From positions 1 through 42,155 of the IMG/VR virus record IMGVR_UViG_3300020156_000050: a stretch of DNA of 42,155 bases; one strand, written 5' to 3'. Positions 352 through 36,837 of the stretch are shown here, in pieces. The notes beneath the pieces are model-generated. The model searched no databases. It saw nothing but the letters and a program-made list of their open reading frames with translations, and was not told the origin of the DNA. Source of the stretch: a virus. Every line of letters starts with the position of its first letter. Position 1 is the first letter of the stretch. Both the position numbers and the translations under genes were made by a program.

Positions 352-354
352 GAG

Positions 355-425
355 CTGCTCCAGCTGGGGTCGAACCAACGCTACCCGGTCCAGGGCCGGG
401 CGTCCTGCCATTAGACTACGGAGCA
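355..425 (-). tRNA. tRNA-Gln (CTG anticodon)
   Basis: A complete 71-nt cloverleaf: acceptor TGCTCCG/TGGAGCA (7 bp with one G-T), D arm GTCT/GGAC, anticodon stem CCCGG/CCGGG with loop CCCTGGA, 4-nt variable region, T arm GTTGG/CCAGC around TTCGACC, discriminator G as expected for Gln. CCA is not encoded. Oddity: position 33 is C instead of the near-universal T. It may help decode CAG codons, which are frequent in this GC-rich genome. Confidence 0.9.
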
Positions 426-429
426 TCAG

Positions 430-502
430 CTGCCACGCCAGGACTCGAACCTGGAACCCCCCGATTAACAGTCGGGTGCTCTGCCCATTGAGCTACGAAG
501 CA
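430..502 (-). tRNA. tRNA-Asn (GTT anticodon)
   Basis: A complete 73-nt cloverleaf: D arm GCTC/GAGC, anticodon stem CCCGA/TCGGG with loop CTGTTAA, T arm CCAGG/CCTGG around TTCGAGT, discriminator G. The acceptor stem TGCTTCG/CGTGGCA has six pairs (one wobble) and one T-T mismatch at pair 5-68. No CCA is encoded. Its 5' end abuts the open end of a permuted tRNA-like unit with no spacer, and its 3' end is four bases from tRNA-Gln. Confidence 0.88.
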
Positions 503-577
503 AGGACCGGTGCTCTGCCATCTGAGCTACCCATCTGGCGACGGGATGGGACTCGAACCCATGACCTCCGGCGTGAG
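503..577 (-). tRNA. Circularly permuted tRNA-like unit C (3' half before 5' half)
   Basis: Read 5'->3' on the minus strand, the 3' half comes first: anticodon 3' strand GCCGG (572-568), variable AGGTC, T arm ATGGG-TTCGAGT-CCCAT, acceptor strand CCCGTC, then GCCA (539-536), then the 5' half: GATGGG, TA, D arm GCTC/GAGC, A26, and anticodon 5' strand CCGGT (510-506). The halves fit as one tRNA: CCCGTC pairs with GATGGG (6 bp, one wobble) and CCGGT with GCCGG (5 bp, one wobble). The acceptor stem therefore forms a hairpin whose loop is GCCA, and the molecule is open at the anticodon loop. TCAC before GCCGG resembles a tRNA-Asp or -Glu loop, but the isotype cannot be fixed. Alternatives: remnant of a rearranged array, or a decoy. 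Confidence 0.5.
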
Positions 578-643
578 GTGCTCTGCCGCTGAGCTACAGC
601 CGACTGGGTCAGCTGACAGGATTCGAACCTGCGACCATCCTCT
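574..643 (-). tRNA. Circularly permuted tRNA-like unit B with CCA loop
   Basis: Same reversed order as the neighbouring unit. 3' half: AGAGG (643-639), T arm GCAGG-TTCGAAT-CCTGT, acceptor CAGCTGA, C73, CCA (607-605). 5' half follows at once: G604, TCGGCTG, TA, D arm GCTC-AGCGGCA-GAGC, A26, CCTCA. TCGGCTG pairs fully with CAGCTGA (one G-T), and G604 pairs with C608, an 8-bp stem closed by a loop that is exactly CCA. A G at -1 opposite C73 is the tRNA-His hallmark, but no GTG anticodon is visible. The anticodon stem keeps 4 bp (CCTC/GAGG) plus an A-A mismatch. Its 3' end overlaps the start of the next unit by a few bases, so one transcript could not yield both intact. Confidence 0.45.
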
Positions 644-644
644 G

Positions 645-733
645 TGGACCTGATGGGAGTCGAACCCATGTTTCGGCAGGGACTGTTCCTGCCCCTTCAG
701 GCAGGCAGTATGTCGGCGAACCAGGACAGGCCC
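645..733 (-). tRNA. tRNA-like sequence of class II length, isotype unclear
   Basis: Acceptor strands GGGCCTG (733-727) and CAGGTCC (652-646) pair over 7 bp with one wobble, and a perfect T arm ATGGG-TTCGACT-CCCAT sits in the right place, with discriminator A. The 89-nt span suits a Ser/Leu-type tRNA with a long variable arm. The interior does not fold cleanly: no D arm is recognisable, and the best anticodon hairpin (TGCCT/GGGCA) has an 8-nt loop containing TGA. A competing hairpin (GGCAGG/CCTGCC) offers CAG without T33. It is probably a degenerate or highly derived tRNA. Confidence 0.35.
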
Positions 734-760
734 AGAGCAGAGGTTTCCCTCGCTCATAGT

Positions 761-766
761 TATATA
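761..766 (-). promoter_or_regulatory. Candidate promoter of the tRNA array
   Basis: Minus-strand ACGC-TATATA lies about 28 bases upstream of the first tRNA-like element, between it and a terminator-like hairpin. The preceding CGC resembles other start boxes in this genome. No -35 consensus is seen. Confidence 0.35.
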
Positions 767-14163: not shown

Positions 14164-14352
14164 CTAGCGGAGCCCCTGCCCGAACATGGCCGAGGCCATC
14201 AGCAGGGCGGTCTGCTCCGCCGGCGGGGTCGCGAACTCCTTAGCCAGGAGGGCGTCGCGGAACGTGGCCGCGAGGTCGGCGAAGCTGTTCGCCGCCTCGA
14301 TGATGTCGAGGGGGTTCGGGCCCTGGAGCTCGCCCGGCTTCGGGGCGGCCAT
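14164..14352 (-). CDS. Hypothetical small helical protein
   Basis: 62 residues; central helix LDIIEAANSFADLAATFRDAL, then a second Ala-rich helix. Coupled to the preceding gene by TGATG. Unknown function. Confidence 0.66.
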   Translation of the reverse strand: MAAPKPGELQGPNPLDIIEAANSFADLAATFRDALLAKEFATPPAEQTALLMASAMFGQGLR

Positions 14353-35643: not shown

Positions 35644-36837
35644 TCACGCGGTGAGCGTCAGCTTCACGAACGCGGTCGGACGGTACACCGCGAGGAGGAT
35701 GCGCTCCTCGGCCCGCAGGGCCACGCGGTTGTACTTGAAGTCGTCCTCGTTCGAGTTGGTCGAGTCGACCTGGATGCCACCCTTGCGGAACAGCTGGGCC
35801 GCCGTGCCGAACGCGCCGACCAGGACGGTGCCCTGGGCGATCGCGGGGGTCACGATGGTGCTGACGCCCCACAGCGGGGGGTTGCCGCCGGCGAACGGGC
35901 CGCCAGCGTAGTAGCGCTCGTCGCCGTCCTTCGCGAGGCGGAGGACCTCGTAGTCGGCCGGGTTGATGACGATGCCGTCAGCCGTCTCCTGCGCCGACCC
36001 GGTCGAGACCATGGTCAGGGCGTGGAAGATGGCGTCGAAGCCCTTCTGAGGCGTGTAGCCCGCGGAGGTCGCGTAGGTCTGGAGACCCGAGCGGTTCAGG
36101 ATACCGCGCAGGTTCGGGGCGGTACCCGAGCCGTTGAGGATCTGGTCCTCCTCGACCACCACGAGGCGGCCGACGAGCTGCGAGTTGATGACCGAGACCA
36201 GGTAGTCGGTGTCGCTCATGGCCTCGTCGGAGACCTTGGTGATGACCGCGATCTTCGACAGCGCCTCGGTGACCGGGCTGAAGTTGAAGTGGATCTGAGG
36301 CTTCAGACCCTCTTCGGCGACGGCCGCGGGCTCACCCTCGACCGCACCCTGCACCCAGTAGGTGAGGCTGGTGTTCTGCATCGCGCCCTGGCCGAGCAGG
36401 TTCGCGATGGTCAGGCGGCGCAGCGGGGTCGCGTAGACGCCACCGTACTGCACCTTGCCGTTGCCGTCCACCGTGTTGGTGTCGGTCGGCGCCTTGAACT
36501 CCGGAGCCGACGCGGTGCGCTGGCCCTGGCCCTTGAGGAACGCGGCCTGCGCGCCGGACTTGACGAAGTGCTCGCCGAGCGTGGCGGCCTTGGCGCCCGA
36601 GGGGGCGTCGGCCGAGTCGGTGACCTCGCCGGCCCCGCCCAGGTCGGCGACGGCCTGCATCAGCTTGGCGTTCTTCTCGCCGCGCTCGATGATGCCCTTG
36701 AGCTCGACCGCGCGGGCCGAGTCCTTCTCGATGTCAGCGGCTTCGGCGTCCGTGAGCTCACGGTTGGACGCCTTCACGCCCGCGACGATGGCGCTGAGCT
36801 TGGCCTGGATGGCGGCCAGTTCTGCCTTGGGGTCCAT
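35644..36837 (-). CDS. Major capsid protein (HK97 fold)
   Basis: 397 residues. Residues 1-~100 form a helical, charged delta-like scaffold (ADIEKDSARAVELKGIIERG) likely removed by the protease; the remainder has HK97 features, including LTYWVQGAVEGEPAAVAEEG (E-loop/N-arm region), a long spine helix region (SDEAMSDTDYLVSVINSQL) and AYRPTAFVKLTL at the end. GGGGAG precedes the ATG. Confidence 0.92.
   Translation of the reverse strand: MDPKAELAAIQAKLSAIVAGVKASNRELTDAEAADIEKDSARAVELKGIIERGEKNAKLMQAVADLGGAGEVTDSADAPSGAKAATLGEHFVKSGAQAAFLKGQGQRTASAPEFKAPTDTNTVDGNGKVQYGGVYATPLRRLTIANLLGQGAMQNTSLTYWVQGAVEGEPAAVAEEGLKPQIHFNFSPVTEALSKIAVITKVSDEAMSDTDYLVSVINSQLVGRLVVVEEDQILNGSGTAPNLRGILNRSGLQTYATSAGYTPQKGFDAIFHALTMVSTGSAQETADGIVINPADYEVLRLAKDGDERYYAGGPFAGGNPPLWGVSTIVTPAIAQGTVLVGAFGTAAQLFRKGGIQVDSTNSNEDDFKYNRVALRAEERILLAVYRPTAFVKLTLTA

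Follow-up and report, generated by a model that had tools for sequence, protein, structure and literature searches.

The window, by which we mean the whole 42,155-nucleotide stretch of DNA analysed (IMG/VR record IMGVR_UViG_3300020156_000050), is the genome of a soil-bacteria phage, a Microbacterium phage of the Dismasvirus (cluster EB) kind. Cluster EB phages are reported to be lytic, to have neither integrase nor repressor, and to carry one to three tRNA genes at the end of the genome (PMC7302621). The RNA cluster of the window lies on the minus strand and, in the order of transcription, consists of a TATATAACTATG block, a tmRNA-like element termed S, two closed tRNA-like modules, tRNA-Asn, tRNA-Gln and an HNH endonuclease gene. 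The RNA features are as follows.

754..766, minus strand: TATATAACTATG block, upstream of the RNA cluster and kept in relatives, as judged by sequence inspection
643..733, minus strand: tmRNA-like element S (RF00023, 34.7 bits)
574..643, minus strand: module 1, closed tRNA-like (RF02553, 33.2 bits; independent covariance model, 62.9 bits; compensatory changes in phage BAjuniper)
506..573, minus strand: module 2, closed tRNA-like (RF02553, 43.2 bits, model positions 23-85 of 114; independent covariance model, 69.6 bits; covariation)
429..502, minus strand: ordinary tRNA-Asn(gtt), directly downstream of the modules (ARAGORN; RF00005, 64.6 bits)
354..425, minus strand: ordinary tRNA-Gln(ctg) (ARAGORN; RF00005, 50.9 bits)

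The TATATAACTATG block is a possible promoter element; a simple sigma-70 scan returned no site. ARAGORN additionally calls a tRNA-Thr at 14232-14319 and a tRNA-Pro at 36066-36160, both outside the cluster, on the plus strand and without an Rfam match; these two calls are probably false.

Read on the minus strand, module 2 has first a basal-stem strand (GCCGG, 572-568) that pairs with CCGGT at 510-506 (5 bp, one G.U). This strand is followed by AGGTC (567-563), a T arm (562-546) and an acceptor hairpin (545-530), in which CCCGTC (545-540) and GATGGG (535-530) pair over 6 bp with one G.U around the loop GCCA (539-536); on the 3' side, TA (529-528), a D arm (527-512) and A511 lead back to the CCGGT strand. 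All the pairings from which the original prediction had derived a permuted tRNA-like unit, namely six in the acceptor and five, with one wobble, between the anticodon strands, are present on this strand. The four-way junction that it had drawn, closed at the acceptor end and open at the anticodon end, is exactly the minimum free energy (MFE) structure of the isolated 75-nt stretch. The neighbouring unit of the same design, to which the prediction had also appealed, is real as well: module 1 (643-574) has four basal pairs (GAGG, 642-639, with CCTC, 578-575), a T arm (632-616), an acceptor hairpin CAGCTGAC-CCA-GTCGGCTG (615-597) of 8 bp with CCA as its loop, TA (596-595) and a D arm (594-580). 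The order in both modules is T arm, capped acceptor hairpin and D arm, with the basal stem at the anticodon end.

As an argument against chance, the pairing seen in one sequence is of moderate strength only, and it is the evolutionary comparison that decides. Among 1,408 junctions between neighbouring 3' and 5' halves in tRNA-array loci, 47 (3%) reach 6 or 7 acceptor pairs out of 7, the junction between the intact tRNA-Asn and tRNA-Gln genes of the window itself forms 6 of 7 acceptor pairs and five basal pairs, and the folding energy of module 2 is unexceptional (z -0.75). Energy alone cannot decide the fold, because the MFE of the whole 143-nt stretch favours a mixed fold: the unconstrained minimum (-58.9) lies 5.5 kcal/mol below the two-module fold (-53.4).

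The same module pair occurs in phage BAjuniper, with 85% identity over 149 bases and with scores of 36.7 and 36.1 bits against RF02553. Between the window and BAjuniper, five of the 14 acceptor pairs differ in both partners (A-U to G-C, C-G to A-U, C-G to G.U, G.U to C-G and U-A to C-G), none is changed on one side only and none is broken; when an equal number of changes was placed at random, all pairs were kept in 38 of 400,000 Monte Carlo trials. Among the known close relatives, BAjuniper is the only one with the module pair, which is absent from most cluster EB phages and therefore dispensable. A search of viral contigs with the upstream protein returned a single locus, without modules. No normal-order ancestor was found in the relatives, where an intact tRNA in normal order would have spoken against the permuted design. 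Five loci of other EB phages (L003, L004, L007, L013 and L014; L numbers are our handles for the loci compared) have, between S and the next tRNA, a long conserved hairpin (CTGCGG...CTGCTG) instead of the two modules. Microbacterium phage DirtyBubble (L010, 624-694, minus strand) has a single closed module between tRNA-Asn and tRNA-Gln, which scores 47 bits and has a 5-bp basal stem and two central mismatches in its acceptor.

IMG/VR was searched with a key that carries no pairing information, a short distance from a D arm to the next T arm. The junction search returned 90 non-redundant matches, 55 of which are normal-order, short-armed tRNA-like genes with 6-7 acceptor pairs of their own and were excluded from the module set. 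In such normal-order viral genes (for example L152, L157 and L163), the anticodon arm is too short for a normal stem and a 7-nt loop. Pairing at 5 or 6 of 6 positions was found in 12 of the 19 matches with an upstream T arm and in 11 of the 14 with a downstream D arm. Both arms are present in 11 matches: the window phage, BAjuniper, eight further tandem loci (L153, L166, L170, L179, L217, L226, L243 and L248, with only 4 of 6 pairs in the upstream acceptor of L153) and one ordinary array. With L148 and L228, which were added by inspection, tandem modules are present in about ten further viral loci and recur in unrelated phages. Tandem modules also lie inside apparently larger structured RNAs in Bacteroidota (L346, 5450-5700; L293, 4300-4600; L256, 1000-1300) and Myxococcota (L276); the Bacteroidota RNAs share a similar upstream region of about 200 nt and end in a hairpin resembling an anticodon arm, and Rfam did not recognise the larger RNA as a whole in L256 or L276.

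The covariation in relatives that had been proposed as a test of the fold is present across 21 modules from many phages. In this alignment, 97.8% of the pair cells are standard, as against 33-46% when the partners are slid by 1-3 columns; nine of the 15 pairs show changes on both sides, five of the six acceptor pairs show compensatory changes, and the covariation is 0.60, compared with 0.17 after shuffling. RNAalifold recovered the fold unguided, including three basal pairs. When strands were swapped among loci, cognate acceptors kept 5.6 of 6 pairs and cognate basal stems 4.4 of 5, compared with 3.2 and 2.4 for swapped strands; none of 20,000 permutations was as good, and the acceptor and both basal stems are each significant separately (p<5e-5). 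A covariance model built from 16 modules, with the Microbacterium sequences left out, gives its highest scores to the four Microbacterium modules (72.5, 69.6, 63.9 and 62.9 bits; E-values are rough), but the score alone does not identify a module because ordinary tRNA junctions reach 53.8 bits. The comparison makes it very probable that the RNA adopts the predicted structure of two tandem closed modules.

Two other pairings were scored in the same way. The colinear, normal-order X-Y junction hairpin shows no covariation (strand-swap p=0.14), and a long-range alternative pairing gave a strand-swap p of 0.63. The four half-pieces have no normal-order partner, the X-Y acceptor pairing at 3 of 7 positions in both the window phage and BAjuniper. 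A normal-order X-Y tRNA, which reaches 30 bits in Rfam, was rejected on this acceptor and on the lack of covariation in its junction hairpin.

Directly upstream of the modules, element S is a tmRNA-like domain of about 90 nt without a reading frame, with an acceptor (GGGCCTG/CAGGTCC) that contains G3.U70, a T arm and a long stem. Its RF00023 match (34.7 bits, E 5e-11) misses the threshold of 47 and spans model positions 1-374; since about 90 nt cover the whole 374-position model, there is no room in S for a tag frame. S is conserved in its homologues (L002-L009 and L012-L016), with compensatory changes in 14 of 27 consensus pairs and with G3.U70, the alanine identity element, in 9 of 9. In L166 and L228, short elements resembling S score above the RF00023 threshold, at 57.8 and 52.1 bits respectively. 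The 'tRNA-Pro(agg)' annotated in BAjuniper (L002, 703-792) is the S element and not a tRNA. A tmRNA or tmRNA-like gene accompanies the tandem modules in the window, BAjuniper, L166, L228, L378, L179 and L217, and none was found at the tandem loci L148, L153, L170, L226, L243 and L248; among 15 control array loci, for which matches of 44 bits or more were counted, one has such a gene. The association of tandem modules with tmRNA-like genes is suggestive, not established. Phage DS6A has a CDS-less tmRNA that reportedly inhibits the tmRNA of the host (PMC11915505).

The 'inverse tRNA' design is already known, a point that the original prediction had missed: it is that of the tRNA-like module of the bacterial Y RNA YrlA, because RF02553 matches both modules with the same order and the same loops. 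The match is confined to the tRNA-like part of the model (positions 22-89 of 114), and its scores of 43.2 bits for module 2 and 33.2 bits for module 1 are both below the Rfam gathering score of 69 bits. In YrlA, the tRNA-like domain imitates the D, T and acceptor arms and receives modifications from DusA and TruB; it touches PNPase, while Rsr/Ro60 is held by the basal stem (PMC8394870). The anticodon nuclease of Salmonella did not accept YrlA as a substrate, and competitive inhibition by the tRNA-like domain of this RNA has been proposed (PMC7790460).

On these grounds, we read window positions 643-506 (minus strand) as two tandem closed mimics of the tRNA elbow, of the YrlA-module kind, that most likely serve as a stable tRNA decoy, and we give this reading as a whole a probability of about 0.5; the decoy function, taken by itself, is held tentatively. 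Upstream S, the modules and downstream tRNA-Asn and tRNA-Gln would be made as one transcript, from which the modules would be freed as the flanking tmRNA-like and tRNA ends are processed. In each module, the T arm would be stacked on the short acceptor-like hairpin, and the basal stem of 4-5 bp would join the strands at the open anticodon end. The conserved T-loop and D-loop residues suggest that the D arm docks on the T loop as in tRNA, giving an L shape, so that the decoy would offer the elbow that tRNA-binding host enzymes read. A module that lacks a free acceptor end as well as an anticodon loop could therefore be neither charged nor used in decoding, nor could it be cleaved at an anticodon. 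An elbow that is offered in a form that can be neither cleaved nor charged would thus titrate a host tRNA-binding factor, which might be an anticodon nuclease, another tRNA-targeting defence or PNPase, the last being bound by YrlA. The decoy idea, which the original prediction had offered as speculation, is compatible with the data and is our favoured reading as a best guess; it is plausible because YrlA resists, and may inhibit, an anticodon nuclease and because the frameless tmRNA of DS6A is reported to inhibit tmRNA.

The gapless arrangement allows for another role. The modules fill the stretch between the tmRNA-like RNA and tRNA-Asn completely, and similar modules lie within tRNA arrays elsewhere, as would suit a structural spacer or processing element of a polycistronic tRNA transcript that guides RNase P/Z or shields the RNA from exonucleases. 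Most EB relatives, however, have the same tRNAs without modules, and we regard this role as unlikely.

That phages carry tRNAs is known, as is the presence of Ro60 together with Y RNAs in some of them. The YrlA-like make-up of the modules, and the presence of Y RNAs beside Ro60 in other phages such as Gordonia phage VanLee, would fit a phage Y RNA that binds host Ro60 (Rsr) and either links it to PNPase or draws it away from that enzyme. However, no TROVE (Ro60) gene was found in the phage, in 12 relatives or in 14 other viral records (mostly tandem-module loci, several being fragments); the Ro60-side stem positions of RF02553 are unmatched in both modules; and the TTACTTC motif is absent from the window, BAjuniper and all other tandem loci examined. 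At Ro60-linked loci, this motif does lie beside the modules, in VanLee (4 copies), Bradyrhizobium (L252 and L307) and Thalassococcus (L318), with variants at some others, and as a positive control the genome scan picked up, in Bradyrhizobium and Thalassococcus, single modules that directly adjoin TROVE genes. The modules are not a canonical Y RNA, and a role through host Ro60 appears decidedly unlikely. In VanLee (L435), the two Y RNA modules lie at 1349-1577, and an annotated tRNA-Arg(tct) that overlaps one of them is probably not a tRNA. Mycobacterium phage Reindeer (L434, 1161-2676) carries, in a row, a tmRNA, tRNA-Asn, a single closed module (RF02553, 31.9 bits) and a GOLLD RNA.

Functionless debris of tRNA-gene recombination would account for halves that look like real tRNA halves, in a class of phage gene clusters known to be labile, and for the 30 bits that X-Y still scores as a degenerate tRNA, yet it is very improbable: both units have undergone compensatory changes, the structure covaries and recurs in unrelated phages, and the relatives yielded no normal-order ancestor. 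Conservation and recurrence likewise disfavour the by-product of copying a cleaved tRNA, which had been another early suggestion.

That the modules are two permuted pre-tRNA genes, with RNase P cutting the acceptor hairpin behind its CCA and a ligase closing the anticodon loop to give working tRNAs, along the lines of the early proposal of a pre-tRNA in need of a ligase, is scarcely credible: the order of 3' half, CCA and 5' half, the complementarity of the halves in the acceptor and anticodon stems, the 7-bp acceptor of module 1 with U8, A9 and the D and T loops intact, and the precedent of bacterial permuted tmRNA, which tRNA-processing enzymes mature from genes of this layout (PMC11915505), all speak for it, but no RtcB or RNA_ligase-family gene was found in the phage or in six relatives, CCA is missing from module 2 of BAjuniper, neither phage pairs position 1-72 in its module 2, the acceptors of homologous modules are often closed by stable GNRA/UNCG-type tetraloops (GCAA, UUCG, UCCG and UACG in several phages), as expected of a permanent cap, and the rejoined halves would yield a Trp, Cys, Val, Glu or nonsense anticodon according to the cut that is assumed.

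Tandem closed tRNA mimics that occur without Ro60 in unrelated phages, and that tRNA finders overlook or misread, would form a class of phage RNA in their own right. Should they be decoys, as we favour, RNA-based escape from tRNA-targeting defences could be tested directly and by simple genetics, and there would be an explanation for some phage 'tRNA' annotations that make no sense as tRNAs. A more ambitious and speculative extension, to which we give rather little weight, is a Ro60-independent phage decoy cassette, in which a frameless tmRNA would block trans-translation while the elbow mimics sequester tRNA-targeting factors, the whole forming a class of viral counter-defence RNA that recurs but has gone unannotated.

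Four known systems bear comparison with the modules. Permuted tRNA genes of algae and Archaea, which give working tRNAs through bulge-helix-bulge splicing (PMC3978253, PMC3218864), likewise place the 3' half ahead of the 5' half, whereas the modules come with neither a phage ligase gene nor a defined anticodon, and the acceptors of their relatives are capped. The DS6A tmRNA resembles the locus in that S, too, is frameless and tmRNA-like, and in that an RNA mimics a tRNA-like host RNA; S, however, only neighbours the modules and is no part of them. VanLee shares phage-encoded YrlA-like modules with closed acceptor hairpins, but its modules are separate, each has TTACTTC, and they lie upstream of a gene for a 'Ro-like RNA binding protein'. 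YrlA (RF02553) itself shares the succession of T arm, closed acceptor hairpin and D arm, the basal stem at the anticodon end and the D- and T-loop consensus; the modules described here differ from it in standing in tandem, in lacking the Ro60-binding stem, the TTACTTC motif and a Ro60 gene in the phage, and in scoring below the family threshold.
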